Assembly (NCBI GenBank): GCA_015233655.1
Contig: JADFXI010000003.1
Coordinates: 1-62,144, forward strand
Source: Nitrospirota bacterium
GTDB taxonomy: Bacteria; Nitrospirota; Thermodesulfovibrionia; Thermodesulfovibrionales; Dissulfurispiraceae
Direction: 5' to 3'
DNA length: 62,144 bases
Shown: piece after piece, positions 34,565 to 62,144 of the stretch
How positions within the stretch are numbered: the stretch's first letter is position 1
Layout of the letters: each line of letters starts with the position of its first letter
Program-made: the position numbers and the translations under genes
The notes under the pieces: model-generated
The model's input: the letters and a program-made list of their open reading frames with translations, nothing else
Databases searched by the model: none
Told to the model about the DNA's origin: nothing

Positions 34565-35320
34565 TTACTCCCCTCCGGATATTGCTATAGTCTCATTGGT
34601 GATAAAGCTGTTTTTATCACTGCCCAGGTAGTAAGCAATATCGGCGATATCTCCGGGAACTCCCATTTTTCTGAGCGGAATCATCGCAATACGCTTCGTT
34701 AAGTCTTTTGGGAATTTTCTATGGAAGGCCGTGTCTATTACACCCGGCCTTATAGTATTTACAAGAACATTGCATTCAGCCCCTTCTCTTGCAAGGGTCC
34801 TTGTTAACCCCTCCAGCGCCCGCTTTGAACAACCATAATGCATGGAAAAGCTTGATCCTCCGTATTTTGCAGCGATAGAGCTGATATTGACGATCCTTCC
34901 GAACCTCCTCTCCTTCATGAGCATGAAAATCCGCGAGGTCAACAGCATGGGTGCAAAAGAATTGACCATAAATGTATCGTTCATGTCCTTGAGGGTCAGT
35001 TCGCTGAAATGCTTGCTTACCATACAGGTACCCGCGTTGTTGACCACGCTGTCGATCCGAAGAGTATCGAGTTTGGCAGAAAGAGTCCGGAGCTGACTTC
35101 GGGATGAAAAATCAGCTTTCAGAAATTGGAATTGCGTATTGAGCCCGCTCAGTTTTCTTTTCAGTTCCCCGAACTGCGGACCGGAAGAATTGAAATGCAA
35201 GATGATGTTCCAGCCTTCAGCGGCAAATTTCAGGGCAACGGCACTTCCTATGCCGCTCGTTGCCCCGGTTATAAAAACCGTCCTTTTTAGACCTGGATCA
35301 TTCATTGTGTCCCAGACCAT
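34565..35320 (-). CDS. SDR-family oxidoreductase (PtmA-like)
   Basis: 'VFITGATSGIGSAVALKFAAEGW', 'VVNNAGTC', 'MHYGCSKRALEGLTRTLAREGA'. Confidence 0.87.
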   Translation of the reverse strand: MVWDTMNDPGLKRTVFITGATSGIGSAVALKFAAEGWNIILHFNSSGPQFGELKRKLSGLNTQFQFLKADFSSRSQLRTLSAKLDTLRIDSVVNNAGTCMVSKHFSELTLKDMNDTFMVNSFAPMLLTSRIFMLMKERRFGRIVNISSIAAKYGGSSFSMHYGCSKRALEGLTRTLAREGAECNVLVNTIRPGVIDTAFHRKFPKDLTKRIAMIPLRKMGVPGDIADIAYYLGSDKNSFITNETIAISGGE

Positions 35321-36038
35321 GTTTCTTTAACCAAAATTCGACCTGCGGGAACTGCCATTCGTAATCCACATCCAGTCCACCCCATTGCTTTAACGGATAT
35401 ATCTTCTGTCCCATCCATTTTTGGGGAAGAAGTCCCTCATCGAGCCGTTCGAGGCACCAGGGCCTGATGATCGAAACACCCATGTCGGCAAACCAGACAT
35501 CCCCCTGGGAATCGCGGTCGCAATTAAGGTCCCGAGGGTCTCCAAACGTTTCAAAAGGGACAAAAGGCCTCAAAAGTCCATCAGCATCTATCCTCCGGGC
35601 ACGAAGCGGACTCCACATGTTATAACAGGAAACCGAGACCGCGGAATCATATTCGGGATGCTCCCTGAGCACCCTTATGCCCTCTGATACGATATCGGCC
35701 GTAACAGTTGCGGCATTACACATCAACAGGACGACCAGTTCGATCTGTTTGTCCCCGCTTGCCTCCTTCGCCGTGCTGTAAGCATGCACGTATACATGTT
35801 CTCCCAGGGCCTGATTAGTGCATAGTTCAGGAGGCCTCCTGATTATTTCGATGCCGTTTTCCGATGCGAGTTCCATCAGATATTCATCATCCGTGGAGAG
35901 ATAAGTCATGTCGATTTCAGGGCATTCCTTTGCGACCCTCATCGGATAATAGGCGAGAGGCCTCCCGAGTATCCTATGCGTATTCTTTCCGGGGAAACCC
36001 TGGCTCCCCTTGCGGCCCATAATCAAAGCGACTATCAT
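35298..36038 (-). CDS. Acylneuraminate cytidylyltransferase family (NeuA/PtmB-like)
   Basis: 'ALIMGRKGSQGFPGKNTHRILGRPLAYYPMRVAKE', 'YLSTDDEYLMELASENGIEIIRRP'. Confidence 0.85.
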   Translation of the reverse strand: MIVALIMGRKGSQGFPGKNTHRILGRPLAYYPMRVAKECPEIDMTYLSTDDEYLMELASENGIEIIRRPPELCTNQALGEHVYVHAYSTAKEASGDKQIELVVLLMCNAATVTADIVSEGIRVLREHPEYDSAVSVSCYNMWSPLRARRIDADGLLRPFVPFETFGDPRDLNCDRDSQGDVWFADMGVSIIRPWCLERLDEGLLPQKWMGQKIYPLKQWGGLDVDYEWQFPQVEFWLKKHGLGHNE

Positions 36039-37036
36039 GACGGCACCTCTTTTTGCATAAGCTTCAGAATTTCACTGTCTCTGAGATAGCAGCCATCACA
36101 GGCTGGTATCTCGTTAGCCATGCCTCGTTTATGCTTCTCACGAATACGGCTTATTTTTTCAGAGTGCCATGCCTCACTAATCGAAATATCTTTCATGTTT
36201 CCAAGCATTAACAGCCCATCATCATCATGGTTGCACGGTAAAATGGTCCCGTCCCACCATATCGCCATCCGCTGCCATATCTGCGGGCATGCCCAGGCGA
36301 ATTTCACCCCTTTCTTTTTCACCTTCATCTCTTTATAGTCCAGGAAGCCGACCTCATCGGCCCTCTGACTCCAGAATTTCTTGTATTCCTCAAAAGTCTG
36401 TTCCAGTTCTGGAAGCATGACTGTCTGGACCCTTATCTTAGGATGGCCCACTCCGAGCTTACCCTTCAGTAACTGCATGCTTTCGATATTGGAAAGGACC
36501 GTCTCGTAACTTGAGCCGGAACGTGACCTTTCGTAAATCTCCTTTGTGTAGCCCTCAAACGAGATGGAAATCCTGTCGAGGCCGGCATCAATCAATTTAG
36601 CTGAAGACTCCTCGGACAGGAGCATTGCATTCGTATTGAAATAAACATCAACAAGTCCCTTGCTTTTAGCATATCGAACAAAGTCGTATATCTGCGGATG
36701 CAGCAGAGGCTCTCCGCGAATATTGAATTTCACCCCGTAAAGATTCTTGTCAGCGCCTTCATCAATTATTTTTTTAACAGTATCGGGCGAAATAAATCCT
36801 TTCTTTACTTTCCGCCCTCTGAAGGTAGTAGCACAAAAGTGGCATTTCAGGTTGCATGCGCTCGTAACTTCGACATCAATAAAAAGAGGGAATTCTCCGA
36901 CATGGAATTTTTCAGGCCATTCTTTCCATTTCTTGCGGTATTCACTGAAACGGCAGCCGTGACTCTCAAAGAGATTTTCGCCGGCAACATGGTGAAAATT
37001 TGAGTTTACAGCAATCATCACCTCGTTCTCCCGCAT
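36035..37036 (-). CDS. Radical SAM/SPASM-type protein
   Basis: CNLKCHFC cluster motif, 'NIRGEPLLHPQI', C-terminal Cys set '...PCNHDDDG...CDGCYL'. Confidence 0.88.
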   Translation of the reverse strand: MRENEVMIAVNSNFHHVAGENLFESHGCRFSEYRKKWKEWPEKFHVGEFPLFIDVEVTSACNLKCHFCATTFRGRKVKKGFISPDTVKKIIDEGADKNLYGVKFNIRGEPLLHPQIYDFVRYAKSKGLVDVYFNTNAMLLSEESSAKLIDAGLDRISISFEGYTKEIYERSRSGSSYETVLSNIESMQLLKGKLGVGHPKIRVQTVMLPELEQTFEEYKKFWSQRADEVGFLDYKEMKVKKKGVKFAWACPQIWQRMAIWWDGTILPCNHDDDGLLMLGNMKDISISEAWHSEKISRIREKHKRGMANEIPACDGCYLRDSEILKLMQKEVPS

Positions 37037-37067
37037 CTAAAATTTCCTCTCTTCGCGATAATAAATT

Positions 37068-37095
37068 TCTATATTGTACATAACTGCTGTCTCAA
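37068..37095 (-). promoter_or_regulatory. Possible sigma70-type promoter upstream of the 36035-37036 radical SAM gene
   Basis: Minus strand TTGAGA-N16-TATAGA, ending 31 nt before the ATG; weak -10. Confidence 0.25.
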
Positions 37096-37167
37096 ATAAC
37101 AGATTTTCGATTATTCTCTTTTTGCAATCCATACTGTTCTTGACTGTCTTTTATTCCCCTCACCGTT

Positions 37168-39015
37168 TTATATGGCTACTTCCATTATACGACTCGCCAT
37201 ACGATCTAACGATTTGCCGTCATTCAGGTAGACACCGTATTTTTCAAGAAACGACATATCGTCGACGTTTGAAATGACTTTGCCTCCGTCAAGAACGGTG
37301 CTGATTTTGCTTGCAAAGTCGTCTTCGTCTAATCCCATGACAGCTCGTGGTGCAAGCAATGAACGAGCTTCCGACGTCATTACATAGTAAGGGTTGCCGA
37401 TGTATACAAGGATTTCGGCCCCTGATGCAGCAGCTTGCACTAACGCCGTTGATGGGAAGTCGATAATAAAGAGATCAAAGTCATGAATAACAGAAATTAA
37501 CGGATCTGCAGCGATCCGCACACCCGGCAAATTGTCCTGTACCCACGATATTATTGGATTATCGCCGGATACCGGCGACCTGATTCCACCCGGAGCTATC
37601 TTGTAGGTTATCTCATAAGACCCCGTATAAGGCTTCAAAGCCGACAAAAAGTGCATTTCATCAAGAATCATTCTCGAGTCCAGACACGGCTGGCCTCCAT
37701 TGTAATAAGCAGCATAGCCCATAAGAGTGACGAACGGGACGTAACATATCTTTTTTATCTTTCTTCGAATCGATCTCTTTCGTGCTACGGTTTCTATAAC
37801 ATGAGATCCCGTCGGAACAATATGGAGGTCATCGTCCTTGAGGTCATTGTACATCTCCCCTGTGCCCTCTCCCCACGACATGAAAACGCCCTTGAATCGG
37901 AAATCAGAGTAAACGGCCATAGTGTTCAATGCGAACCCGTAAGAACCGTGCTGAATATTAAACACCGGCTTATTAGCTCGTTTGAAGTGAGATTGCACCA
38001 TACCATTAAAAGCTTGTCCTCCTCCCCCCCCACATATAAATACTTTAAAGTCTTTCTGAGCATCAACTGCTTCCACGTAGTTCAATCGGTCCCATAAAGT
38101 TGCAATGTATCTGTCGGCATACGCTTTCAGCCTCAATCCGAGGATTCCGTCTGTAATCCGTTCCCCCGTTGGGTCAAGGTCCAAAAAACGGTCATCGACA
38201 GCAATCGAAGGGATTTCGGGACCCGCCATTTCCATCCGCAATACAGCAAGAGTATGCAGAGACCGGATATTGAGAGGGCTTTGGAGATAGAAATTAAAAG
38301 TATCGGACAATGCATATCTAAGCGGCTTGATGTCATAACCCAAACAGTCAATCAAGACGTTGCTTTTAGATGACCGATATCTGCCGGCAACGACAAGATA
38401 TTCGTATAGACCCTTTGCCTTTATTCTCTTGAGTGAATTTCTCCAGAAGGCAAACTTGTCAGGCTGCAGGCCGTAATCCGCACCGCAAGCCGCTGCCTGC
38501 AAAATAATCCAATTAATAACGGTAATCCCTTTCGCCCGGCCAAGTTCCTCTACCAACGCCCCATACAGGGAGTCCTGTTTATGAAAAAAAAGTTTGAGAT
38601 CGTGAATCGCCTCGGGTCTGCACCCTTCAGGGGCCCCTATAAGGGACGGCTTTTCTTTTTCTATGAGCCGTTCGAGCACGGCCAGCCTAATCCTCACAGC
38701 GTCGACGAGTATTTTCAGCCAGTATATATTCCACAGGAACGGGGTAAAATCGCGCTCCCTAAAACAAGGGGCTTGCGCCTGAAGTTCAGCCTCGGCTTTA
38801 CACGCCCAACGTTCCGTAATAGCGCAATTCTCGTCACCAAGCGCTCTGAGTTCGGCCGGGGACAGGACTTCTTCATCGGTAATGAAGCGTATGCCTTTCT
38901 GTAAGAGATGGTAGGAGGCCTCGGCACTTACAGAAAGGTACAGACATTCCTTCGGCGGGAAAAGGCCTTCCGCTTCTTTGATGTCTGAGGCGTATTCGAT
39001 AATCGCAATATTCAT
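37168..39015 (-). CDS. Large putative surface-polysaccharide transferase (GT-B-like C-terminus; possibly LIC12162-type)
   Basis: 615 aa; 'NIQHGSYGFALNTMAVYSDFRFKGVFMSWG', 'FIIDFPSTALVQAAASGAEILVYIGNPY'. Confidence 0.55.
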   Translation of the reverse strand: MNIAIIEYASDIKEAEGLFPPKECLYLSVSAEASYHLLQKGIRFITDEEVLSPAELRALGDENCAITERWACKAEAELQAQAPCFRERDFTPFLWNIYWLKILVDAVRIRLAVLERLIEKEKPSLIGAPEGCRPEAIHDLKLFFHKQDSLYGALVEELGRAKGITVINWIILQAAACGADYGLQPDKFAFWRNSLKRIKAKGLYEYLVVAGRYRSSKSNVLIDCLGYDIKPLRYALSDTFNFYLQSPLNIRSLHTLAVLRMEMAGPEIPSIAVDDRFLDLDPTGERITDGILGLRLKAYADRYIATLWDRLNYVEAVDAQKDFKVFICGGGGGQAFNGMVQSHFKRANKPVFNIQHGSYGFALNTMAVYSDFRFKGVFMSWGEGTGEMYNDLKDDDLHIVPTGSHVIETVARKRSIRRKIKKICYVPFVTLMGYAAYYNGGQPCLDSRMILDEMHFLSALKPYTGSYEITYKIAPGGIRSPVSGDNPIISWVQDNLPGVRIAADPLISVIHDFDLFIIDFPSTALVQAAASGAEILVYIGNPYYVMTSEARSLLAPRAVMGLDEDDFASKISTVLDGGKVISNVDDMSFLEKYGVYLNDGKSLDRMASRIMEVAI

Positions 39016-39067: not shown

Positions 39068-40621
39068 TCAGACCAAAATATTCTTGTCTTCGGGCAAAAA
39101 TGTATTATAAAGATTTTCTTCTTTATAAATCCTTGCAAATTTTCCGTACACCCTGTTGCCTTCTTCAGTCAAGTCTTCGGCCTTTTTTATCTCATTCCAG
39201 TATCTCTCCGGAAATTTCACATAAAGCATAAAACTCCGCAGCATACCCCTGTACTCTTGAGGTGAAATATTCGGATTATTTATTGCAGGCCATCCTCTGC
39301 TATAACCAACTTGATTGCTTTGTTCTGCAGCCTCATCAAATAAACCAAGTTTGACAGATAATTTTCTCAGGCTGCTCCCCTTAAAAGGATAGACAAATCC
39401 GAGGGCCGGCGACTGCACCCTGGCTTCTTTAACAAGCCTGACGGTGTCCCAATACATTTCCCTGGTTTCATTTGGAAAGCCCATCAGGAGAAACGAAACT
39501 GTACGAAGGCCGTGTGCATTCAGGATTTCAAATGCCTTTAAAATAGTGCTGTTTCTGACCGGCTTGTTGCACATTTCAAATCTCATCTTTTCATTGCCTG
39601 TCTCAACTCCAACACTCACCGAAACACATCCCATGTCGGCTAATGCCCTAGCTTTCTCGTGCGTGACCGATTGAGGACTCACATCCACAACAAAAGGGAG
39701 AGCAACCTCCTTTGCATAACGGACCGACAACTCCTTAAGATATTGGGAACTTAAAGAAAGAAAGGTAGCGTCTTGAAACCTGAAGAAATTCAAGCTATAT
39801 CTTTTCTTGAGATGCACGAGTTCATCAATTAAACGGTCTACGTCGTATCGTCTTAATTTTGAATTGTCCTTGTTAAATAAACTCATTGTCTGATACAAAC
39901 AGTAAGAACATTTCCCGGGACAGCCTCTCGTTACTACACCGTCACCGGAACGATATACCTTGCCGTCATAGATCCTGTACATTAGCCTGTCATCGTAAAA
40001 ATCATAATCCAGAAAAGGCAACGCGTTAAGGTCGAATACAACCTGGCCCGTAATGTTTTTATGCAGAACACCGTTTTTCTTGACCCAAAAACCGTCGGTT
40101 TTTTCAAAGTCTTTATTGTTGTCAATCCTATTCAACAATTCGACGAAAGCGAGTTCCCCTTCCCCAATACATATTATGTCCACAGACTTTTCTCCGACAG
40201 TGCCCTCAGGATCGGCAAACGTATGGATGCCTCCGACAACCGTTAAAATTTCGGGGTTGAACTCTTTCACAATGTCCAGCAGGGCCACGGACAGTCTCCA
40301 CTCAACGCTCAGGACCGAAATGCCGACCACGTCAGGCCTAAACTTTTGCAAAACTGATATCAGTTCTTGTTTGATATTTTTATCCTCTTTTATCAGCCCA
40401 TAATCTTTAGTATCGACATGCCTGTAATTCAGGATTTCTTCTCCCGCATCTGACGTTCCCATATATCTGTCATTGCCATGAATATCTTTTGTGTCAAAAA
40501 ACGAAGTGTCGAAAAGCTGAACATCATGACCGGATGCGCGGCAACTATTCATAACTGCCGTGAGACCTACAGGCTTATACCCCCCGCAATCAATATTCGG
40601 AAAAATAAATAAAACCCTCAT
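39068..40621 (-). CDS. B12-binding-domain radical SAM protein
   Basis: 'FIFPNIDCGGYKPVGLTAVMNSCRASGHDV', 'ILTVVGGIHTFADPEGT', radical SAM 'TRGCPGKCSYC'. Confidence 0.87.
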   Translation of the reverse strand: MRVLFIFPNIDCGGYKPVGLTAVMNSCRASGHDVQLFDTSFFDTKDIHGNDRYMGTSDAGEEILNYRHVDTKDYGLIKEDKNIKQELISVLQKFRPDVVGISVLSVEWRLSVALLDIVKEFNPEILTVVGGIHTFADPEGTVGEKSVDIICIGEGELAFVELLNRIDNNKDFEKTDGFWVKKNGVLHKNITGQVVFDLNALPFLDYDFYDDRLMYRIYDGKVYRSGDGVVTRGCPGKCSYCLYQTMSLFNKDNSKLRRYDVDRLIDELVHLKKRYSLNFFRFQDATFLSLSSQYLKELSVRYAKEVALPFVVDVSPQSVTHEKARALADMGCVSVSVGVETGNEKMRFEMCNKPVRNSTILKAFEILNAHGLRTVSFLLMGFPNETREMYWDTVRLVKEARVQSPALGFVYPFKGSSLRKLSVKLGLFDEAAEQSNQVGYSRGWPAINNPNISPQEYRGMLRSFMLYVKFPERYWNEIKKAEDLTEEGNRVYGKFARIYKEENLYNTFLPEDKNILV

Positions 40622-40778: not shown

Positions 40779-42047
40779 CTACGACAGCAAGGATAAATTG
40801 TTCCAGACCTTGTCGAAGGCCTGAATAATTTCGTCCATATCTTCAAACACAAGTGGGGGACGAATAATCTCAGTCGATAGCGACCAGTTCATGGCGTGCG
40901 CGACGTTCGGCAGCAAGTCCAGAGAATAATCCGGCGACCCGCCGTACCAGGGGCATTTGAAAGGACATCCTTTCTCGCCGAATCCTACCTGCTGCTGGTA
41001 AATAGGGAACTCGTTCAACGGCAGATAGCCGGCGTAGAAGTCCATCCCTTCGGCATTGAGGGCTTCCACAATGCGCGGTGCAGAGACTTTAATCTTCATT
41101 GGGTCCAGGCGCAGAGGATAACGGTAAAAGCTATGCTCACATCCTTCTTTGATCGCAGGAGTTATTAATCCGTCAAAACGTTTCAGTCCCTGGGTCACAT
41201 AGTCTGCAAGTTCTCGCCGTTGCCTCAGCAGGTCGCTTAATTTCTTCAGCTGCTCTCTTCCTATGGCGGCCTCTATTTCATTCAGCCGGTAATTCCAGCC
41301 AATCATATTGATCAGGTTTTTCACAGGCATGCCGGTAGCGATGACAGCCTCCGCATGGTTTCTGATCAGCTGGAGCTTAAGGGCAAGTTCATCATCGTTA
41401 GTCGTGATTACACCCCCCTCTCCGGTCTGAATAATCTTGTGGCAGTTGAGGCTGAACACGCCCATATGGCCTATTGTTCCTGTCAGTCTTCCTTTGTAGC
41501 GCATGCCCGGCGACTGCGAAGCATCTTCTATTACAATAAGAGAATGTCTTTCGGCAATCTGCATTATTGCGTCCATCTCAGCCGGATGGCCGTATATATG
41601 AACAGGGATAACAGCCTTTGTCCTGGATGTGATCCTGCTCTCCAGGGAAGCCGGCGACATGCAGAAGGTATCCGGTTCTATATCGCAGAAAATCGGCACG
41701 GCATTATTGACAAGAATCGCGGCCGCCGTGGCCGTCATGGTCCAGGGCACTGTAATTACCTCGTCTCCAGGACCGACACCTGCGGCGCCTACGGCAGCCA
41801 TGAGACCCGAGGTCGCAGAATTAACGCTGACTCCGTACTTGACTCCGAAGAAGGAGGACCATTCTTTCTCGAAGGCCTTGACTTCAGCGCCTCCGAGAAA
41901 CCACTGGTTGTTGGAACCTTCGAAATCAGACAGGATGCCGCTTTCAATGACCCTCAAGGCCGCGGCTTTTTCCTCTTGTCCTGTAGTGATATGCACCGGA
42001 TAGGGTTTTGTGCGGACCGGTGTTCCGCCTAAGAGGGCTGGTTTCAA
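40779..42047 (-). CDS. DegT/DnrJ/EryC1 PLP-dependent sugar aminotransferase
   Basis: 'VNSATSGLMAAVGAAGVGPGDEVITVPWTMTATAAAI', 'VIEDASQSPGMRYKGR', 'SLNCHKIIQTGEGGVITTND'. Confidence 0.92.
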   Translation of the reverse strand: MKPALLGGTPVRTKPYPVHITTGQEEKAAALRVIESGILSDFEGSNNQWFLGGAEVKAFEKEWSSFFGVKYGVSVNSATSGLMAAVGAAGVGPGDEVITVPWTMTATAAAILVNNAVPIFCDIEPDTFCMSPASLESRITSRTKAVIPVHIYGHPAEMDAIMQIAERHSLIVIEDASQSPGMRYKGRLTGTIGHMGVFSLNCHKIIQTGEGGVITTNDDELALKLQLIRNHAEAVIATGMPVKNLINMIGWNYRLNEIEAAIGREQLKKLSDLLRQRRELADYVTQGLKRFDGLITPAIKEGCEHSFYRYPLRLDPMKIKVSAPRIVEALNAEGMDFYAGYLPLNEFPIYQQQVGFGEKGCPFKCPWYGGSPDYSLDLLPNVAHAMNWSLSTEIIRPPLVFEDMDEIIQAFDKVWNNLSLLS

Positions 42048-42898: not shown

Positions 42899-43858
42899 TC
42901 AGGGCTTGCAGTGTTCCTTCACAAAATTCTCCACCTCCAGTATTAGGGCCGGCCCCATCCGCTCTATAGTATTGAGCCTGAGTATGTCCTCAAATTGCCG
43001 GAGCTTGCTGACGCCGGGGATGATGGTGGATATCCTGTCGTTGGACAGCAGATAGTTCAGTGAGAAGTGAAGGATTGCGTAGTTGCGGTCCAATCCGAAA
43101 CGAGTGATAATTGCATTTACCATGTCCACCCGGTCGGCGAGCGTTGCACCGTGCAAGAACTGCCGTCTGTCGTCCTCAGCGGAAAAGGTTGTTTTGTAGT
43201 CGTACTTTCCGGTCAGCACGCCGCTGGAAAGAGGCGACCGGATTATCAGGCCTATGCCGGCATCAGAAGCCCTCCCTATAAAGACTTCGTTCGGCCTGAT
43301 ATGCAACAGGTTGTAAAAGACCTGTAAGGTATCGACCCTATTGTCATCTATAAGCTGGAGCGTTTCCTCTTCGGTACCGGTGGACACACCGAAAAATCTG
43401 ATTTTCCCCTCTTGTTTGAGTTCGTCGAGAATATCATAAATCTCGCCGGAACGGATAAGGTGGATGCCCGGTTTAGTCAGCTGAAAGATATCGGCATAAT
43501 CAGTCTTAAGGTTTTCCAGGGATTGATGCAGACAGCCTCTGACGTATTCCCGGTCAAAACGTCTCTCACCGGAGGAAGTGATCCCACACTTGGTAGCGAT
43601 GATCACCCGGTCTCTACGACTGCCGAAGGATTCGCCCAGGAGCCGTTCCGCTTCACCATCGCCATACTTGTCGGAGGAGTCAAAAAAATTGACGCCGGCC
43701 TCAAAGGCCCTTTCCAGGATCGCGAGGGCCTCGGCACGCTCTATCCTCGGCGAGCCAACGTAGGCGCCGCCAATCAGCGAGGGGCCGCCAATCTGGGCCG
43801 TACCAAGGCCTATCTCGGACACACTCAGCTTCGTCTTGCCTAATGTTCTGTACTTCAT
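42899..43858 (-). CDS. Aldo/keto reductase
   Basis: 'KYRTLGKTKLSVSEIGLGTAQIGGP', 'FFDSSDKYGDGEAERLLGES', 'VIIATKCG'. ATGA start at 43858 overlaps upstream radical SAM stop. Confidence 0.9.
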   Translation of the reverse strand: MKYRTLGKTKLSVSEIGLGTAQIGGPSLIGGAYVGSPRIERAEALAILERAFEAGVNFFDSSDKYGDGEAERLLGESFGSRRDRVIIATKCGITSSGERRFDREYVRGCLHQSLENLKTDYADIFQLTKPGIHLIRSGEIYDILDELKQEGKIRFFGVSTGTEEETLQLIDDNRVDTLQVFYNLLHIRPNEVFIGRASDAGIGLIIRSPLSSGVLTGKYDYKTTFSAEDDRRQFLHGATLADRVDMVNAIITRFGLDRNYAILHFSLNYLLSNDRISTIIPGVSKLRQFEDILRLNTIERMGPALILEVENFVKEHCKP

Positions 43859-52771: not shown

Positions 52772-53440
52772 TTATGACCACTTCCCTCTTAACATCACGA
52801 ATGCCTCGGCATATTCAAAACCGGCTTCTATTCCTCTTTTCTGCGCGGCTATCTTTACGGCCTCCGCAGAACGTGGATGCGGGTATTTCCGGCCTTCAGT
52901 TTCGTAACATCCAAGGGCCTTTATCTTTTTACCGATAGTATTTTTTATGTTTACATAATAGTTGGGAAGAAATGCGTTTTCGGGAAGGGGTGGCGATTGT
53001 TCTGTCGAAGACGGCGTCTCATACATATAGATCTCTTTGACAAAAGGCGTTGCCGCCGGACGCAGCACCACTCTGGCTGCATCGAAGACAGCCCTGTGGT
53101 CCTGGTTGTTGTCACCACTGAACGGCACATAGACAACATCCGGCTTGAGATCGAAAAAACCTTTTTCAAGAGGAATAATAATGTCCTGGATGCAGGCATC
53201 AAGCCTCTCGTCCGGCAGATTCAGAAATAGTGTGTCACTATATCCGAGCGCATTCTTTGCTTTTAAGGCATGGGCCTTTTCAATATTGTTTCTTCGCTCA
53301 TCAAAAACATGGTTATAGACCCTGTGCGCAATAAAAAAAACGCATACCTTATCGCCGGCTTTGACTCGTCTGCATATGGTGCCGCCGCATCCAAGAGTTT
53401 CGTCATCCATGTGAGGCGCGATAATCAGAACTTTTTTCAT
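52772..53440 (-). CDS. PIG-L family deacetylase
   Basis: 'LIIAPHMDDETLGCGGTICRRVKAGDKV', 'QDHRAVFDAARVVLRP'. Confidence 0.92.
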   Translation of the reverse strand: MKKVLIIAPHMDDETLGCGGTICRRVKAGDKVCVFFIAHRVYNHVFDERRNNIEKAHALKAKNALGYSDTLFLNLPDERLDACIQDIIIPLEKGFFDLKPDVVYVPFSGDNNQDHRAVFDAARVVLRPAATPFVKEIYMYETPSSTEQSPPLPENAFLPNYYVNIKNTIGKKIKALGCYETEGRKYPHPRSAEAVKIAAQKRGIEAGFEYAEAFVMLRGKWS

Positions 53441-54468
53441 CTCAGCAATATCCCCTTTAATTCTTCGATATTCTTCCCAGCGCCTTCCCAGCCATAAAAA
53501 ATGGGCGGGCAGCTATGGTGTTCTGCCACCCATCTTGAATTAGGAAGGTCATACCCTATATTCTCTATTTCAGGCCCGAAATCACTTTGAGCAAAGACCT
53601 TACCTGTTTCAACCTTCAAAGCATAGTCAAAGACTATATATTTGTAATACCCTGAACTCATGCCTGACGGAAATTTGACCCGGTTTTCAAAGATACCGTC
53701 ATATTTTGCTGCAAGGTCCCTTTTCCATTCAAGAATCATCGGAAGCCGTTCAAGTTGGACCAGCCCGAATGCCGCAGTAATTTCATTCATCCTGAAATTG
53801 AAGCCATCTTTTATTTTATAAGCGACTTTGCCTTTTTCAACACTTTTGCCATAATTCCTGTAGTATCCGAGCCATTCGAGGAACTTTTCATCTTTGGAAC
53901 ATACTATGCCGCCCTCTCCTGTCGGCATAGTTTTAGTTGCGTAAAAAGAATAGGAACCGGCAAGTCCCCATGCTCCGCCTGTCTTTCCGTTCCATTCCCC
54001 TCCGTGTACGTGGGCACAGTCCTCAACAAGCGCGATGCCCCTTTCCTTGCAAAAAGCGGCTATGCCCTCAACCTCAAATGCAATGTGCCCCCCTATATGC
54101 ACGACGGCAACGGCCTTTGTATCTTTTGTGACCTTCTTTTTCAAATCTTCCAGACTCAAGCAGAGGTCGTCCCGATTGCAGTCCGCGTATATTACATTTG
54201 CTCCAGCCCTCTTCGCAGCAACGGCGGTCGCCCAAAACGTATTGGCCGGGACAACGACTTCTTTTCCCTGAACTCCTATATACTCAAAAATGCTCAGGAG
54301 TCCAGCTCCTCCATTGGTTACGGCCAGACACGGCATGCCTATATATCTTCCAAAAGCCTCCTCGAATCTCTCTACCATGGCGCCTTCAGATAAAAAATTG
54401 CTTTCAAAAATATCTTCAAGCAATTTATGATATTTTTCTCTGTATCCGGGTTCAAAAGGTATTTTCAT
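53437..54468 (-). CDS. DegT/DnrJ/EryC1 PLP-dependent aminotransferase
   Basis: 'VTNGGAGLLSIFEYIGVQGKEVVVPANTFWATAVAA', 'LVEDCAHVHGG', 'SFYATKTMPTGEGGIVCS'. Confidence 0.9.
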   Translation of the reverse strand: MKIPFEPGYREKYHKLLEDIFESNFLSEGAMVERFEEAFGRYIGMPCLAVTNGGAGLLSIFEYIGVQGKEVVVPANTFWATAVAAKRAGANVIYADCNRDDLCLSLEDLKKKVTKDTKAVAVVHIGGHIAFEVEGIAAFCKERGIALVEDCAHVHGGEWNGKTGGAWGLAGSYSFYATKTMPTGEGGIVCSKDEKFLEWLGYYRNYGKSVEKGKVAYKIKDGFNFRMNEITAAFGLVQLERLPMILEWKRDLAAKYDGIFENRVKFPSGMSSGYYKYIVFDYALKVETGKVFAQSDFGPEIENIGYDLPNSRWVAEHHSCPPIFYGWEGAGKNIEELKGILLR

Positions 54469-54481
54469 AAATTTCCTGACA

Positions 54482-56203
54482 TTATATAAAGTTCCTGGTC
54501 TTCGTCTTTTCCAGGCGATGAAACAATAGATTGAATTTTGTAAGCCTGCATCTCGGACAATGCTTCATACAAAAAGCTGCATCCATAACCATTTGAGCTT
54601 GCCTGATTCTCTCTTTGCCGAGCCATATATCAGCAAAGGATTGGTCCGTAATATTTCCTATAGGTTTGATCCACGGATAGATATTCAGCCTGCCGCACAA
54701 ATAAACGCCGCCATCTGCTGCTATAACGGTCGTCAAACTATGCGCCTTGCAAGGGAGGCCTGCGTTTCCTTCAACTACATTCTCGCGCATTCCGTCCGCA
54801 ATAATAGAAAAACTGCCGGTCTCATATTTCTTCAGATATGAGATATCCACGTTTGATTCAAGCTCGGGATGGTCTATAACAGGCCTGAACTGGATATAAC
54901 TTGCTCCAAAATTTGACAGCCTTATAATAAGTGCTTCGAGGCTTCCAAGGTTCTTTGATGTTACAACATAGCCAATGCCGACAGTGGCTTTTGAGGAGCA
55001 GAGGGTCTTGATATTGCTCATAATCCTCTCAAAACCGTCATTGCCTTTCAATGCTCTCTGCTCTTCCGCATTGGAGGCGTCGAGACTAACCCTTATCCAT
55101 TTAAACTTGTCGGCAAGGCCCCTCTTTATCGGTATGCTGCCGTTAGTAATCAGCCCGACTCCGAAACCCAAATCATATGACAGGTTGACCACATCAGAGA
55201 AACCTTTGTGGATAGTGGGTTCGCCGCCTCCTTCAATTACTATGCCTTCCGTGCCCCCTGCCTTCAAATCAACCAGGAGCCTTTTGATAACTTCAAGTTC
55301 GATATCACCGTTTATCCTCGCCCTTAAATCTTTATCTGAACACCATACACAATCGAAATTACATCTGTTCGTAAGGGACAGCTCCACACTCACAGGATAA
55401 GTATAATCCGGCCCGGGTGTTTTTCCCCCGACCAGGGCACGTATTTTCTCAGGGAAAAAATAGAGTTTTTCAAGGCCTACTTCCTGTATGGATTCATACT
55501 TATTGCTCTCTGCGAGAATAGGGTTATTGTCAAGCAGGTTTATGATCTCAGGCGTAAAAGGATGCTGCAGATTGCCGAGGATAAAGCTTATGAGCTTCAG
55601 ATCCTTCTCTGTGTCGAAGCATACTTTGTAATGGGGCCTGGGACATTGATATGCAGGTTTGTATATTTTAAATTTTGTTTCATTTTGATGAAAATAGAGG
55701 GTCCCTGCCTCCCTCTGCTCCGGAGTCAGCTTTTTCGCGTTGAGATTAAATAACAGTTTCCTGCTGACTACCTCACACCCGGTCCCATATATCGTACCGT
55801 CCAAATGCTCGTTGTAACTGAAGTCATAATTTCCTGTTAGGTGCTCTTTGATAAGGTCACTTGCCAGATGGGGGTCAAACAGAGGATAATTTCCGTTTAC
55901 CTTAAGTATTGTCTCTCCTTCATAGACTTCCACGGCATTGCACAACCTGGAAACCACATCTGTCTCGCTTCCGCGAAATACTTTTATATTAAGGCGTTGC
56001 GCCTCTGCCGCCAGCGCATCGTCCTCAGGCAAATCACTTGTGGCAAGAATTATATCAGTTACATTATTCACTTTATTGATCCTTTCAACAATGTGTTGAA
56101 GGACCGTCTTGCCGCAGAGCTTTACCATACTCTTGCCTGGAAAGATCTCTGAGATATACGTTGCCTGAACCAAGGCACATAACCTTTTATTATTTATTTT
56201 CAA
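54482..56203 (-). CDS. Fusion: N-terminal SpsF-like nucleotidyltransferase domain + C-terminal radical SAM/SPASM domain
   Basis: N-term 'VFRGSETDVVSRLCNAVEVYEGETILKVNGNYPLFDP' (SpsF-like); C-term 'LTNRCNFDCVWC', 'IEGGGEPTIHKG', 'CMKHCPRC'; one continuous 573-aa ORF. Confidence 0.87.
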   Translation of the reverse strand: MKINNKRLCALVQATYISEIFPGKSMVKLCGKTVLQHIVERINKVNNVTDIILATSDLPEDDALAAEAQRLNIKVFRGSETDVVSRLCNAVEVYEGETILKVNGNYPLFDPHLASDLIKEHLTGNYDFSYNEHLDGTIYGTGCEVVSRKLLFNLNAKKLTPEQREAGTLYFHQNETKFKIYKPAYQCPRPHYKVCFDTEKDLKLISFILGNLQHPFTPEIINLLDNNPILAESNKYESIQEVGLEKLYFFPEKIRALVGGKTPGPDYTYPVSVELSLTNRCNFDCVWCSDKDLRARINGDIELEVIKRLLVDLKAGGTEGIVIEGGGEPTIHKGFSDVVNLSYDLGFGVGLITNGSIPIKRGLADKFKWIRVSLDASNAEEQRALKGNDGFERIMSNIKTLCSSKATVGIGYVVTSKNLGSLEALIIRLSNFGASYIQFRPVIDHPELESNVDISYLKKYETGSFSIIADGMRENVVEGNAGLPCKAHSLTTVIAADGGVYLCGRLNIYPWIKPIGNITDQSFADIWLGKERIRQAQMVMDAAFCMKHCPRCRLTKFNLLFHRLEKTKTRNFI

Positions 56204-56243: not shown

Positions 56244-57563
56244 TCATGTCAACCGCTTAAACCCTGCATGAGCAATCGGCCCGCTGTAGACTTCTTTTAG
56301 CGTTCCCGCTTTTATGGCAGGCATCAGTTCACCCAAGACCTCATCAAGCGCTTTCAGATAATTATTCACATGTTCGTTCGTATGGGCAAAAGTTGCATAG
56401 AACGTCTTTGACGTCAGATAGCCTTTTTCAAGCATTTTTAGGACGATTATAGTATGAAGCAATTGCGCCTCATCGATGTTTATCCTCCAATTGGTAAGAG
56501 GTTCGATTCCCGCTACTATTATTTCGAGCCCATGCTTTTGTCCGAGCCTTAGCCAGCCGTCCTGCATCATCCCGCCGATACGTACCAGATGAGTACCGAC
56601 ATCGTTTTTCAAATGTTTTCGAACAGTGGCGACTGCGGCCGCAGGTCCTATTTTGTCCGTCCAGTACGTGCTGCTGATGAAAGTCCTCTGAGCTGCGTTC
56701 ATTACTTCCTTTCTGCCGATGACGGCAGCCATCGGATACCCGTTGCCGAGGGCTTTTGCGAATACGGCTATGTCCGGCTCGGTCCCCAATTTGAGATGGA
56801 TTCCTCCGGATACCATCCTGAAGCCGGATGATACTTCATCAAATATAAGAGGGATGCCAAGGTCCCTGGTTACCTGGCGTATGCCCGAAAGGAAGCCTTC
56901 TTCAGGCAGGTAATTGCGGGCAGGCTCCATAACGACTGCTGCCAGTTCGTCCCTGCTTTTGAATATCTGCTCTTCAAATCCTTTCAGGTCATTATACGCA
57001 AAGGGGACACATGTTCCGAGAAGGCCCCTTGGCACTCCTCCGGGATCAAGGCCCGGCAGAAGATGTCCATTCAATATTGTATCGCTCGCGAGATTGGCGG
57101 AAAGATACCAGTCGTGCCATCCATGGTAGCCGCAAAACAGCACTTTGTCTTTCTGTCTCGAAGCCCGGGCGATCCTTACAGCCACCGCCATAGCTTCCCC
57201 TCCCGTTCTCGCATACCGTACCATGTCGGCCCATGGATGCATCTCAATCATAAGTTCAGCCAGTTCGACCTCTTCGGGCGCATTCAACGTACACATATTA
57301 CCGGCCCTTACAGCCGCCAATACGGCACTATCCACTTCGTCGTCGGCATATCCCAGGGAACAAGCGCCTATCCCCGAGATCGTCATATCGGTATAATGAT
57401 TCCCGTCGAGGTCCCATACGGAAACCCCCTTGCATTTTTCATAGTAGGATGGCCACTCTTCAGGCAGAAACATTTCGGGTCTCTTAGACAACAGCTGGGT
57501 CCCGCCAGGTATAAGCTGCTTCGCTCTTTTATACAAAGCAATGCCTTTATCTCTTTTCCCCAT
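56244..57563 (-). CDS. Class III aminotransferase (glutamate-1-semialdehyde aminomutase-like)
   Basis: 'LIPGGTQLLSKRPEMFLPEEWPSYYEKCKGVSVWDLDGNHYTDM', 'IFDEVSSGFR', 'FAKALGNGYPMAAVIGRKEVM'. Confidence 0.88.
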   Translation of the reverse strand: MGKRDKGIALYKRAKQLIPGGTQLLSKRPEMFLPEEWPSYYEKCKGVSVWDLDGNHYTDMTISGIGACSLGYADDEVDSAVLAAVRAGNMCTLNAPEEVELAELMIEMHPWADMVRYARTGGEAMAVAVRIARASRQKDKVLFCGYHGWHDWYLSANLASDTILNGHLLPGLDPGGVPRGLLGTCVPFAYNDLKGFEEQIFKSRDELAAVVMEPARNYLPEEGFLSGIRQVTRDLGIPLIFDEVSSGFRMVSGGIHLKLGTEPDIAVFAKALGNGYPMAAVIGRKEVMNAAQRTFISSTYWTDKIGPAAAVATVRKHLKNDVGTHLVRIGGMMQDGWLRLGQKHGLEIIVAGIEPLTNWRINIDEAQLLHTIIVLKMLEKGYLTSKTFYATFAHTNEHVNNYLKALDEVLGELMPAIKAGTLKEVYSGPIAHAGFKRLT

Positions 57564-57608: not shown

Positions 57609-59537
57609 CTACCCTTTCAGTGCTGCAGGGCAAAAAAAGTCGTCGCCGACATTATTGGATTCGATGTATCTTCGTACTGCAATGCCAAGCGAATGCCCGC
57701 CGTCGCCAGTCTTTATTGCTTCATCCATAAAAGTCTGAACAAATCCGCCAACCCGCCTCGGCGCTTCGAAATCATTAAAATAATTGAACTTCTGCTGCCA
57801 TTTTGAAAAGTCTCCGATACTTTTATCTCCCCTGCTTGCCTTGACAATTGCCTTTTCAAAATCTTCAAGGCCAGGATAAATAAACTTTTGATCCGCGTCC
57901 TTGTAGAAAGGGTGGTTCACCCATCCGCTGCAGTCCCAGTGGACCGCTTTATGACCATATACACCTGCTACTATTCCAGCGGAATTTAAACCGTAACAGA
58001 CGGACAAATCCGCAAGCGATGCCGCAGTAACAGGAGAAATTTCCCTGACAAAATAATATACTTTTTGTTGCTGAACAAGTGCTTTGAGCCGAGCCGTAAT
58101 TTGTTCTCCATGCGGCAAGGCGCCCAGGGTATCAATGGTCCAGCACTTACTCTTAATGATAGCTCCCCATCCCGTATTCTCTTCCAATAAACTAATTATT
58201 TTCAGATAAAACTCTGATAAAGATTCCAGGGTCACTGCACCACGGTACTCGGCAGAGCTGTCAAATACAGCCAATTTAAATTCGATTGGTTTGGCGAAGC
58301 GGAACGTCCGGTCTGAACTATTTCCATCAGGACCGATAATAATGCCTGAAGGAATAATATGTGTGCCTGTCTTAGCACCCGGGCCGACAAAGTCGGATAT
58401 CATTTTGCCCCAGGCAAAAAATACGTGATGTGCCACCAGATGTGTCGTCGTGCTCAAAATATGAGGATAATTTGACCAGTGGACTCCCATCATTATGCCG
58501 TTCGACAACTCCATCGCTTCGGCCTGCACCCCGGTTACCCAGGATGCTTCCTGGTGCTGGATGAGAATTTTAACATTATATTTCCTGAACATTGCGCTAT
58601 AAAATGACAGGTAGAAATAATATTGAGATTCAAATGTTCTGTACCATGCCGGCATCGCGGCCTTGCGCAGCATAACATCTTTAATCAATCTGTCCGTAAG
58701 GCTGTAATCCATATCTAAAACTTTGAACATGCTGAAGAAATGTGCATCAATCCATTTTAATCCCATGCTTTCAATTGTCTTTGTTATCTCTTCTGAAGGC
58801 GGGGTGTCAGGACGATCAAGATAATAAACTATATCAAAATTATCTGTATTGACAGCGTGTCGCCAGAAGACAAAATCGGCCACGTCTTTATGCGAATACT
58901 CAACCCAGACGGCAGGCTTATGAGTCATCGCGTTATCGTTTCTGAATGCGGCTGAGACCTTGTTATATAAAATAACAATCATATAATAAAGAGGGCGCAT
59001 ATAATATTTTATATATACCGACAAATCAAATGATTGTTTAACAACAAAACCCTTATGTGCATAATATGAAACTATAAGGCTATTTATTGGATGTTTTTTA
59101 AAATAAAGATAATTAATTATTTGTTCCCCGGACCCCTCACTAAGAATATATGGCTCCGATAATACGGAGGTAGCGAATGCTACTCTTCTATACAATAAAC
59201 CGGACGCATAACAAATAATCATTTTCTTAAAACTCTCGGGTTTGTGTGGCGCATATCGGTCTAAAAAGCGCGTGATGCAGGTATCAAGAGTTTGGCGCGT
59301 TTCATACGCCATGCTTGATCCATCAGACGCCATTTGCCCCAGATTCCGTTTGGCTTTAATAAAGATCCTGCTCAAATCGAGTCCCGGCAAAACCCGGAGC
59401 AGGACCTTTGATATATCAGAAACATTATGTTCATCGTAATAAACGCATATCCTGGAAAACAATCCAATCAGGACCGTTCTGACAACTATTCCAATTGTCA
59501 GTCTTTCCACCCATAAGTTTCTTCCCATCTTAGCCAA
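57609..59537 (-). CDS. Large uncharacterised surface-carbohydrate protein (possible GT-B-like transferase)
   Basis: 642 aa; 'SVCYGLNSAGIVAGVYGHKAVHWDCSGW' C-terminal motif similar to GT-B ends; located among NulO genes. Confidence 0.45.
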   Translation of the reverse strand: MAKMGRNLWVERLTIGIVVRTVLIGLFSRICVYYDEHNVSDISKVLLRVLPGLDLSRIFIKAKRNLGQMASDGSSMAYETRQTLDTCITRFLDRYAPHKPESFKKMIICYASGLLYRRVAFATSVLSEPYILSEGSGEQIINYLYFKKHPINSLIVSYYAHKGFVVKQSFDLSVYIKYYMRPLYYMIVILYNKVSAAFRNDNAMTHKPAVWVEYSHKDVADFVFWRHAVNTDNFDIVYYLDRPDTPPSEEITKTIESMGLKWIDAHFFSMFKVLDMDYSLTDRLIKDVMLRKAAMPAWYRTFESQYYFYLSFYSAMFRKYNVKILIQHQEASWVTGVQAEAMELSNGIMMGVHWSNYPHILSTTTHLVAHHVFFAWGKMISDFVGPGAKTGTHIIPSGIIIGPDGNSSDRTFRFAKPIEFKLAVFDSSAEYRGAVTLESLSEFYLKIISLLEENTGWGAIIKSKCWTIDTLGALPHGEQITARLKALVQQQKVYYFVREISPVTAASLADLSVCYGLNSAGIVAGVYGHKAVHWDCSGWVNHPFYKDADQKFIYPGLEDFEKAIVKASRGDKSIGDFSKWQQKFNYFNDFEAPRRVGGFVQTFMDEAIKTGDGGHSLGIAVRRYIESNNVGDDFFCPAALKG

Positions 59538-59563: not shown

Positions 59564-60952
59564 CTATGTCTGCCGGAATCCCCGGAAGGAAGCATCTTTT
59601 TCCAAATAGAGTTTTTTTGTCTGCACTAATGCTTCATTAAGATTTTTTTCGTAATAATTCGTAAGGAGCCTCGTATTCGCCTCGCAGAGCGCCTCATGAA
59701 ATTCATCATCGCTGAGTTCTGTAAAGTTTACCGACAACAGGTCGGAATTTACATGTTTATGCTCGTAAAAATCCTCGCAGTCCTTGCAGAGACCTTTCTC
59801 TATGGCATGATAATACAGCGGTGAACCGGGATATGGGGTCACCGGTCTGATAGTACGCATTTGAGCACCATCGTCATATTTCAGCAGGAAATCCACTCCT
59901 TTGTTCAGAGTATCCCTATTTTCACCGATATTGCCAAAAATGATATTGTAGCCCGGACTGATGCCTGCTTCCAGAGTAGCCTCTACCCCTTTAATAATCT
60001 GGTTCGTAGTCAAAGCTTTGTTCATGTTCTTAAGTATTTGATCATCCATTGCTTCAATGCCGTAATTAATAAAGACGCAACCGGCTTCTTTCATAAGCTT
60101 CAAAACATCAGGCTTTGCATAGTTTAATCTGCCGTTGCAGGCCCACTTTATATTAAGTTTTGCCTTTATAAAATCCGTGCAGAGGCCCGCCGTCCTATTT
60201 AGAGATGACATGAGGAGTTCATCTGAGAATACGACATAAGTTATGCCGTAGTCCCTTTTTAATCGTTTAATTTCTTCGATAATATTTTCACTTGATCGTT
60301 GCCGAAACCCCTCATCCATCCGATAACAAAAGTTGCAGTTAAATGTGCATCCTCTTCCCGATAAAACCGGCATAGCAAAATCATTGTTCGACGCATGCGG
60401 CGTCCTGAGCAGCCGGTAATAGTCGATTGGAAACAGGTCATGCGCAGGGAATGGTATTTTGTCGACGTCACTTATAAGGGACCTTCTCTCGTTTACTGTG
60501 ATCTCGTCCCCATCGCGGAAGGCAATCCCCTTGATGCCTGCCGGCGGTTTCCTGTTCGACAACGCTTCCAGCAACTCAAGAACAGTCACCTCTCCTTCTC
60601 CCATGACTACTACATCCGCATTTGTTTTTTTAAGAAAAAAAACAGGCTCCGGAGTAGGGCCGTGACCGCCTATGATATAGAAAGGCCGTTGCTTTGATTT
60701 ATTGATGGCATCCGATAATTTCAACAGTTTCCGGTACTGATAATACCCGGCAATGACACTCACACCTACTGCATCAAAACTGTTTTTGTTCAGGAAATCT
60801 GTGAGGTGTTCGTCAGGGTAGTGGTGCTTGTCCTGATTATAGATCTCTACTTCATACCCTTCTTTTTTTAAGACTGCAGCTATGTACGCGAGTCCTTGCG
60901 GAAACCAGTGTATGTAAGAACCGTTATCATATACGACCAGTAAAATACGCAC
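59564..60952 (-). CDS. B12-binding-domain radical SAM protein
   Basis: 'ILLVVYDNGSYIHWFPQGLAYIAAVLKKEGYEVEIYNQD', 'YIIGGHGPTPEP', 'LSGRGCTFNCNFC'. Confidence 0.88.
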   Translation of the reverse strand: MRILLVVYDNGSYIHWFPQGLAYIAAVLKKEGYEVEIYNQDKHHYPDEHLTDFLNKNSFDAVGVSVIAGYYQYRKLLKLSDAINKSKQRPFYIIGGHGPTPEPVFFLKKTNADVVVMGEGEVTVLELLEALSNRKPPAGIKGIAFRDGDEITVNERRSLISDVDKIPFPAHDLFPIDYYRLLRTPHASNNDFAMPVLSGRGCTFNCNFCYRMDEGFRQRSSENIIEEIKRLKRDYGITYVVFSDELLMSSLNRTAGLCTDFIKAKLNIKWACNGRLNYAKPDVLKLMKEAGCVFINYGIEAMDDQILKNMNKALTTNQIIKGVEATLEAGISPGYNIIFGNIGENRDTLNKGVDFLLKYDDGAQMRTIRPVTPYPGSPLYYHAIEKGLCKDCEDFYEHKHVNSDLLSVNFTELSDDEFHEALCEANTRLLTNYYEKNLNEALVQTKKLYLEKDASFRGFRQT

Positions 60953-60965
60953 GTGAACTTTCCTC

Positions 60966-61670
60966 CTAGTGTTCTAGGTTGCCCCGGGTCTCTCTCAAGA
61001 GAAACTCACAGAAGCGCAAATCAAGCTCGGTATCGATGTCCTGAGAGCGTTCTCTCGGCATTATATATGCTATGGTCTCATCGGTAACAAAAGTTTTCGT
61101 CTTAAGCAACCAACTGCAATTGGCCACATAAACTGCGCCATTCGACGCGAAGACCTTCGGCAGGTCCTGCCTGCGATATGTTTCTTCACTCTTTAATAAG
61201 GGTTGCAGATTACCTGCGGGACCTATAGTATACATCCAAAAGGGGCTTATATCAGGTTCTGTTACCGAAACGCAGGCAGGCGCCTTTCGGTCAATGCACA
61301 GTTCGATGCTACGGTCTATATCTGCTGCAAGGCGGAGCGGCGAGGTCGGCTGCAGCAGCACAATCATATCATATTGTTCCGGAAGAGCTTCGATGGCGTG
61401 GAGAATGGGAGCGACCCCAGGTGTTTCATCACTGGCCAACTCCATCGGGCGAACAAACGGAACATCACACCCGAACTGCCGCGCAACCGAAATGATCTCT
61501 GCGTCCTCCGAAGATAAAACGACACGATCGAGATATTTTGATTTTTTTGCCTCTTCAATTGTCCAGGCAATTAAGGGTTTCCCTAAAAGAGGCAATATAT
61601 TTTTTCTAGGCAATCCTTTCGAGCCGCCCCTTGCGGGTATAATTGCGACTATCTTAACTCCGTTATCCAT
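60966..61670 (-). CDS. Acylneuraminate cytidylyltransferase (NeuA/PtmB-like)
   Basis: 'AIIPARGGSKGLPRKNILPLLGKPLIAWTIEEAKKSKYLDRVVLSSEDAEI', 'IVLLQPTSPLR'. Confidence 0.92.
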   Translation of the reverse strand: MDNGVKIVAIIPARGGSKGLPRKNILPLLGKPLIAWTIEEAKKSKYLDRVVLSSEDAEIISVARQFGCDVPFVRPMELASDETPGVAPILHAIEALPEQYDMIVLLQPTSPLRLAADIDRSIELCIDRKAPACVSVTEPDISPFWMYTIGPAGNLQPLLKSEETYRRQDLPKVFASNGAVYVANCSWLLKTKTFVTDETIAYIMPRERSQDIDTELDLRFCEFLLRETRGNLEH

Positions 61671-62144
61671 GTTTGCGTCCTTCCAATTCTTCCGAGTTCT
61701 TCTTAAATTCTTCCCACTGACCTATATCAAACCACCCGCCGTAGATCGGGTATACGCTTACCTTTTCTTTTTTCATGACGATATCTATCAGCTCATTCAT
61801 ATCAATTGAGGTCCCTTCCGGTATAAATGAGATAACATGGGGCTCCATAACATAAACGCCGGTATTTATAATCACATCATGCACCGGCTTTTCTAAAATC
61901 CTCCCCAGCCTGCCGTCGGACAATTCAAGCACACCGAAATGAATTTTAACTTCGTTGTGACATCCAACTATTGTCATGGCAGCTTCATGCTGTTTATGCC
62001 ATTTCAAGATTTCATGATAATCCGCATCTAAAATAGAATCGCAGTTTGTAATTAAGAAGGTGCCTGTAATTTTATCTTTGAGCAATGAAAGTCCGCCGGC
62101 TGTACCTAAAAAATCATCCTCCTCGACCCAGTCAATTGTATAAG
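61663..62144 (-). CDS. Sugar-1-phosphate nucleotidyltransferase (PtmE-like), 5' end beyond window
   Basis: Reading past the ORF-track start gives ...YTIDWVEEDDFLGTAGGLSLLKDKITGTFLITNCDSILD..., typical NTP-transferase; 'GGWFDIGQWEEF' C-term. Confidence 0.85.
   Translation of the reverse strand, partial: YTIDWVEEDDFLGTAGGLSLLKDKITGTFLITNCDSILDADYHEILKWHKQHEAAMTIVGCHNEVKIHFGVLELSDGRLGRILEKPVHDVIINTGVYVMEPHVISFIPEGTSIDMNELIDIVMKKEKVSVYPIYGGWFDIGQWEEFKKNSEELEGRKHG

Follow-up and report, generated by a model that had tools for sequence, protein, structure and literature searches.

The 62,144-nucleotide contig JADFXI010000003.1, hereafter the window, was analysed over its whole length; it belongs to a metagenome-assembled Nitrospirota genome (GCA_015233655.1; 3.29 Mb, 84% complete) and encodes a group of radical S-adenosylmethionine (SAM) enzymes among genes for cytidine monophosphate (CMP)-sugar synthesis. 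All genes used here lie on the minus strand and are named by their lower coordinate (Table 1). Type II secretion genes occupy the left contig end, and a surface-polysaccharide locus spans from ∼6.6 kb to the right end, with genes for a Wzy_C ligase/polymerase, a Glycos_transf_4 protein, a Polysacc_synt_2 dehydratase and many glycosyltransferases. The 27.6 kb between 34565 and 62144 contain six radical SAM domains, against 0.52 expected from the 62 such domains of the 3.29-Mb genome (Poisson P ∼2e-5). A third B12-binding radical SAM gene lies outside this segment (18981–20510; 31% identity to 59564). Radical SAM genes, both B12-type and SPASM-like, are also found at further NeuB loci in this genome (L011 and L013; contigs C189 and C191 of G000).

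Pfam profiles bear out the family assignments of a previous sequence-only reading of the segment: NeuA/SpsF cytidylyltransferases (CTP_transf_3 at 35298, 47750, 52141 and 60966), one NeuB/SpsE synthase (49507), a PIG-L deacetylase (52772), reductases of the SDR, AKR and MocA families, two B12-type radical SAM proteins (39068 and 59564) and an SpsF-radical SAM fusion (54482), in which CTP_transf_3, radical SAM and PF13186 domains share one open reading frame. Some points had to be amended. DegT aminotransferases are encoded at 40779 and 53437, but the class III aminotransferases, announced in the plural, come down to one (56244). The predicted PseG/SpsG-like protein (48493) does match TIGR03590, at a score below the curated cut-off. 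The GT-B-like label of the large proteins 37168 and 57609 found no support, as neither matches any Pfam, NCBIfam or PDB profile. Finally, the three stand-alone radical SAM proteins (36035, 43855 and 51099) carry radical SAM and PF13186 domains as claimed, but are not of the SPASM type.

The SPASM motif consists of CX9-15GX4C, a gap, CX2CX5CX3C, a second gap and a final Cys, seven Cys that serve two auxiliary clusters, whereas the twitch domain is a truncated, one-cluster form (PMC6231123). The window's four PF13186 proteins match only the first four Cys of the seven-Cys pattern, with the spacing CX17CX44-45CX2C and only four conserved Cys further to the radical SAM cluster motif; they are single-cluster twitch proteins. 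In a set of 22 twitch proteins the CX3CX2C cluster motif is intact in every member, and all 22 possess an auxiliary motif CX17-18CX41-46CX2C. BtrN, the 2-deoxy-scyllo-inosamine dehydrogenase of butirosin biosynthesis (PDB 4M7T and 4M7S), shows the spacing CX17CX44CX2C in the profile alignment. It belongs to the twitch dehydrogenases, its auxiliary cluster is fully ligated, and it oxidises an aminocyclitol alcohol to a ketone (PMC9012708). When a profile of 17 twitch relatives was searched against PDB, BtrN was the top match with 106 bits, followed by a match of 64 bits, and DesII scored 49. An AlphaFold (AF2) model of the 36035 protein (predicted local distance difference test score, pLDDT, 89) placed BtrN at Foldseek ranks 1–2, ahead of DesII, SuiB and BlsE; SpeY, another twitch dehydrogenase, came lower. 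BtrN is thus the nearest solved structure to the 36035 family by both profile and fold, sharing the radical SAM core and the twitch motif. It differs in that the Foldseek identity is only ∼18%, its substrate, within an antibiotic pathway, is a free aminocyclitol, and it has no cytidylyltransferase partner. DesI/DesII and BlsE likewise represent radical SAM chemistry on sugars, for DesII with a DegT partner, but their similarity in sequence and fold is below that of BtrN, and neither DesII nor BlsE is linked to a cytidylyltransferase. Known non-glycan radical SAM families, the outcome that would have spoken against a role in glycan synthesis, were rejected, since no NCBIfam model for such a family came close to its cut-off. 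The fold also resembles that of sugar-modifying radical SAM enzymes.

Judged from these similarities, the twitch enzymes would convert a secondary alcohol into a ketone. Sugar epimerases of the radical SAM type are also known, and the window's enzymes might instead resemble NeoN, inverting a sugar C–H centre with no ketone intermediate. The Foldseek matches do include the radical epimerase EpeE, which acts on a peptide; however, such a reaction needs a hydrogen donor, usually Cys, and two alignments (A2 and A4) contain no invariant Cys beyond those of the radical SAM and auxiliary clusters. Epimerisation would also leave the linkage to pyridoxal phosphate (PLP) enzymes, described below, unexplained, and we regard it as very improbable.

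In order to examine genomic context, the 51099 protein was used as bait in 177 genomes of the order, which yielded 20 close homologues outside the window genome and 24 distant ones. A CTP_transf_3 gene was found within 5 kb of 19 of the 20 close homologues and of one of the 24 distant ones, chance proximity being ∼1.4% per locus. Since NeuB and CTP_transf_3 families were matched somewhere in all 35 genomes searched, their mere presence is uninformative and it is distance that counts. A further group of related twitch enzymes outside the window has six members, and NeuB lies within 4 kb of each of them. The sugar link of the twitch enzymes is well supported, and the expectation that these families would co-occur with CMP-sugar genes elsewhere was borne out, with cytidylyltransferases and, in the case of several lineages, also with NeuB. 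A tree of 48 proteins places the window's four enzymes in separate groups (group A with support of 100, group B with 95, group C with 99 and group D, the fusions, with 100), and the locus contains at least three modules with separate histories. Several further arrangements were seen in the related loci. NeuB (with SAF in L057) is fused to an SpsF-type cytidylyltransferase next to a twitch gene (L057:10863–12635 and L063:16697); a DAHP synthase I family gene separates NeuB from the twitch gene at L061:8977–9819 and L062:4723; and, as read by eye, a NeuB/radical SAM/PseG cluster includes genes that resemble dehydrogenase E1 alpha/beta, together with one for a lipoyl/hexapeptide-repeat protein (L060:3974–7623), by which an acyl group is perhaps made.

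Module A, the best conserved of the modules, centres on the twitch enzyme 36035 and the cytidylyltransferase 35298. Orthologues of the former are present in 14 of the 177 genomes, each time with an orthologue of the latter (14/14; 70–79% identity). Only one further genome (G301) has a 35298 orthologue of at least 70% identity, and its contig ends beside that gene; G340 is a distant but genuine exception, with a cytidylyltransferase of 49–51% identity and no twitch enzyme seen. NeuB is not on the contigs of most module A loci, for example the 59.6-kb contig of G132 that carries the 36035–35298 pair; because module A recurs without NeuB, the term 'nonulosonate' is unproven for it. Genes for epimerase, 2-hydroxyacid dehydrogenase, PF04199 cyclase, HAD phosphatase and B12-type radical SAM enzymes recur in its loci. 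The first four adjoin the module as a set at L044:16310–19510, with equivalents in L046, L049, L054 and L056. The 14 loci differ in the enzyme that accompanies the pair: nine have a HisC-type aminotransferase, four, including the window, an SDR (short-chain dehydrogenase/reductase), none has both, and one (L047, where the contig ends just past the radical SAM gene) has neither. Even the sister proteins of L050 and L054 differ in having a HisC or an SDR partner. At L045:2510 and L055:881 the module A radical SAM enzyme carries an NAD-epimerase fused to its N-terminus.

The twitch enzymes of modules B and C (43855 and 51099) are situated with NeuB, PseG, SpsF and DegT genes in the window, and the 51099 orthologue of G154 is accompanied by PseG, NeuB, MocA, a 44816-like protein and a DegT1 of 64% identity in the window's order. 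A NeuB-type synthase is present for modules C and D (49507, L009 and L066). Short NeuB-type synthases of 268–292 aa that lack SAF are encoded at 49507–50385 and at L009:7381–8187, and the protein of PDB 6ncs is similarly short. In gene content these modules recall the nonulosonate pathways (NeuB/NeuA, PseG/PseI/PseF, SpsE/F/G and legionaminic acid), with which they share NeuB, a PseG-like protein, NeuA/SpsF and a PseC/LegC-like DegT. The window locus differs in its NeuB without SAF, the added radical SAM enzymes and a module A without NeuB, and none of its proteins reaches the NCBIfam equivalog cut-offs for NeuB, PseI, PseG, PseF or PseC. The listed open reading frame of the aldo-keto reductase (42899–43963) overlaps 43855; the gene more probably starts at a Met near 43861, which would remove most of this overlap.

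Module D is built around the fusion protein 54482. A profile scan of genome contigs with the fusion alignment retrieved four full-length orthologues, the identities being 68% in Planctomycetota (best segment), 62–63% in Nitrospirota, 50% in Elusimicrobiota and 47% in Nitrospinota. An orthologue of the DegT2 aminotransferase is beside or near the fusion in all five loci, across the four phyla, whereas the cytidylyltransferase (NeuAc) and NeuB are each found in three of the five. In G134 the fusion, DegT2, NeuA, a family 2 glycosyltransferase (GT2) and NeuB constitute a compact five-gene run flanked by housekeeping genes. Within the order, DegT2 proteins of more than 38% identity occur only in the two genomes that hold the fusion. 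In all five fusions the SpsF domain has other residues in place of the two Arg of the R-x(4)-R nucleotide motif and of the GDxPL Asp; these three positions are kept in KdsB and in all five aligned SpsFs, whether stand-alone or NeuB-fused. With these conserved site residues lost, the fused domain is probably not a working transferase but a catalytically dead binder of the CMP-sugar, and the neighbouring intact NeuA would carry out activation. A second apparently dead cytidylyltransferase-domain fusion is seen in family 2 glycosyltransferases joined to degenerate NeuA-like domains (L044:3654–5003, L057:12642–14027 and L059:13107–14504). A HisF/HisH-like pair was noted by eye near the Elusimicrobiota fusion (L065:14445–15840). 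Spiro-SPASM proteins (TIGR04321) are found in spirochaetes. This model covers the N-terminal, cytidylyltransferase-like part of the fusion as well as its radical SAM part, in a similar domain order, but the score is 61.7 bits against a curated cut-off of 250. Since a profile of the fusions alone misses BtrN, the BtrN-like assignment of module D rests on motif spacing and neighbours.

Two explanations that would detach the radical SAM enzymes from sugar chemistry can be weighed at this point. That common families gathered by chance in a large O-antigen locus, with no functional link, would sit well with a genome as rich in radical SAM domains as this one. As a sole explanation it is refuted by the density of these domains and by their linkage to cytidylyltransferases (19/20 against 1/24), to which the fusion–DegT2 pairing over four phyla can be added, and we consider it scarcely credible. 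Alternatively, since glycan loci gather varied genes, the enzymes may act on a non-sugar part, such as an N-acyl substituent, a lipid carrier or a peptide. The NCBIfam top matches are indeed maturases of metalloenzymes and peptides, all far below cut-off, and earlier annotations, with no function assigned, include glycan regions rich in radical SAM genes: in a plasmid region of Brachyspira hyodysenteriae, several such genes lie between those for rfb proteins and glycosyltransferases, and the part of that account considered here describes neither a NeuB nor a NeuA pathway (PMC4267127). A non-sugar substrate would not be expected from the one-to-one linkage with particular cytidylyltransferases, from the fusions to a cytidylyltransferase-like domain and, in L045 and L055, to a sugar epimerase, or from the sugar-type structural relatives, and appears quite improbable.

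Table 1. Window genes, by coordinate. G and L labels denote compared genomes and loci.
Feature	Coordinates	Strand	Basis
HAD phosphatase, recurrent module A companion	29003..29728	-	Pfam; homologue beside 2-hydroxyacid dehydrogenase, epimerase and PF04199 cyclase
2-hydroxyacid dehydrogenase, recurrent module A companion	29725..30642	-	50–64% identity elsewhere
TIGR04326 (LIC13510-like) surface carbohydrate protein	30656..32659	-	NCBIfam 243.7 bits, cut-off 250; homologues in module A loci
NAD-dependent epimerase/dehydratase, recurrent module A companion	32727..33641	-	54–68% identity
Methyltransferase, recurrent module A companion	33684..34529	-	Profile match; module A loci
SDR reductase, predicted ketone-consuming step, module A	34565..35320	-	Pfam adh_short
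Cytidylyltransferase CTPa, module A	35298..36038	-	CTP_transf_3; 70–79% orthologues in 14 other genomes
BtrN-like twitch radical SAM enzyme, module A	36035..37036	-	Pfam, PDB profile, AF2 and Foldseek; 14 genomes
Large protein, suspected glycosyltransferase	37168..39015	-	Homologues beside twitch radical SAM genes in L049, L063
B12-binding radical SAM enzyme, recurrent module A companion	39068..40621	-	Pfam; module A loci
DegT/PseC-like aminotransferase (DegT1), module B/C	40779..42047	-	64% orthologue in G154 with NeuB, MocA and 51099-type radical SAM
Aldo-keto reductase, module B/C	42899..43861 (likely start)	-	Pfam; start judged from sequence
BtrN-like twitch radical SAM enzyme, module B	43855..44901	-	Pfam, Cys motif; separate lineage
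Epimerase_2/surface glycosyltransferase-like protein	44816..45967	-	Weak PF02350 and NCBIfam; 36% homologue in G154
Gfo/Idh/MocA oxidoreductase, module C	46739..47743	-	45% identity in G154
SpsF/KdsB-type cytidylyltransferase, catalytic motifs intact, module C	47750..48496	-	CTP_transf_3
PseG/SpsG-like protein, module C	48493..49503	-	TIGR03590 87.9 bits, cut-off 153.6
NeuB-type synthase, module C	49507..50385	-	PF03102 199 bits, no SAF match; best PDB match 6ncs
WbqC family protein	50388..51095	-	43% homologue beside NeuB, DegT2 and fusion in Nitrospinota L066
BtrN-like twitch radical SAM enzyme, module C	51099..52154	-	Pfam, Cys motif; clade support 99
NeuA-type cytidylyltransferase, intact motifs, module D	52141..52770	-	68–75% orthologues beside fusion
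PIG-L deacetylase, module D	52772..53440	-	Pfam
DegT2 aminotransferase, module D	53437..54468	-	Near fusion in 5/5 loci, 46–79% identity
Degenerate SpsF domain fused to twitch radical SAM enzyme, module D	54482..56203	-	Pfam and alignments
Class III (glutamate-semialdehyde aminomutase-like) aminotransferase	56244..57563	-	Profile match
Large protein of unassigned family	57609..59537	-	32% homologue near fusion in Elusimicrobiota L065
B12-binding radical SAM enzyme	59564..60952	-	72% orthologue on G301 contig with NeuB and NeuA genes
PseF/NeuA-type cytidylyltransferase (CTP_transf_3)	60966..61670	-	TIGR03584 175.6 bits, cut-off 205.7
Sugar-1-phosphate nucleotidyltransferase, truncated by contig end	61663..62085	-	Profile match

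We propose that the twitch enzyme would generate a 5'-deoxyadenosyl radical, which would abstract hydrogen from a carbinol carbon of a sugar acid or a CMP-sugar, either before or after CMP transfer; the second electron would pass to the auxiliary [4Fe-4S] cluster with its four Cys, and a ketone would form with no need of NAD(P). The ketone could then be aminated by a PLP-dependent aminotransferase, which would be DegT2 next to the fusion and a HisC-type enzyme at most module A loci, or reduced to an alcohol, possibly of inverted stereochemistry, by the SDR in the window's module A and perhaps by the aldo-keto reductase. In module D, the intact NeuA (52141) would make the CMP-sugar from the NeuB product, and the fused SpsF domain, probably inactive, would hold it and present it to the radical domain. 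Such an order has a parallel in the butirosin pathway, in which a DegT aminotransferase acts after BtrN. In the KdnB/KdnA route, which leads to 8-amino-Kdo, KdnB is an alcohol dehydrogenase dependent on NAD. This route shares with our proposal the predicted oxidation of an ulosonic-acid alcohol followed by DegT transamination, but KdnB is not a radical SAM enzyme, and in the window a radical SAM enzyme would stand in place of the NAD enzyme. The PDB matches of DegT2 include KdnA, not as the top match.

The main rival to this scheme reverses its order. As in DesI/DesII, DegT would act first on a keto-sugar, and the radical SAM enzyme would then deaminate or dehydrate the amino sugar to a deoxy-keto sugar. 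DesII structures occupy Foldseek ranks 3, 5 and 9–12 for the 36035 model, DegT2 matches the DesI model, below cut-off, and a DegT gene does accompany the fusion. However, BtrN is the better match both by sequence (106 against 49 bits) and by fold, and the exchange of HisC for SDR in module A is unexpected for a deaminase requiring an amino substrate, so that DesII-type deamination seems unlikely.

Our preferred interpretation is that the window contains a surface-polysaccharide locus with a number of distinct CMP-sugar pathways, every one of which has a BtrN-like, dehydrogenating twitch radical SAM enzyme to itself, and we place its probability slightly above even, at roughly 0.55. The proposal of the sequence-only reading that radical chemistry modifies CMP-activated sugar acids is retained insofar as the linkage to cytidylyltransferases and the sugar-type structural relatives agree with it. 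A single nonulosonate pathway was rejected, there being four twitch lineages with separate partners and a module A with no need of NeuB. A number of points weigh against our interpretation. The function of twitch and SPASM proteins is hard to predict from sequence (PMC6231123), and DesII, BlsE and SuiB are structurally close behind BtrN. The fusion-only profile has no BtrN match in PDB, and the model of the fusion was poor (pLDDT 63) and was set aside for fold comparison. The exclusivity of HisC and SDR is based on 13 informative loci, many of them closely related; no function could be assigned to 37168 and 57609; and substrate, product and polysaccharide structure are not readable from sequence.

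In the open-access literature, most subscription journals being outside this scope, no paper was found that mentions both radical SAM and nonulosonic acid, or radical SAM, cytidylyltransferase and SPASM together; nor did we find there CMP-sugar pathways combined with BtrN-type enzymes, the fusion to a dead domain or the swapping of partners. The parts of the pathway are of known kinds, and it is for their combination that no published description was found within that literature. More tentatively, the modules may represent a widespread and hitherto undescribed way of making amino- or epi-sugar acids, in which BtrN-type dehydrogenases act on ulosonic acids or their CMP forms, the dead domain is a docking module and the partner enzymes are interchangeable. 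If the preferred interpretation is right, radical C–H oxidation would join the steps already known in CMP-sugar biosynthesis, surface sugar families yet to be observed would be predicted, and the cytidylyltransferase-radical SAM fusions would gain their first testable function.

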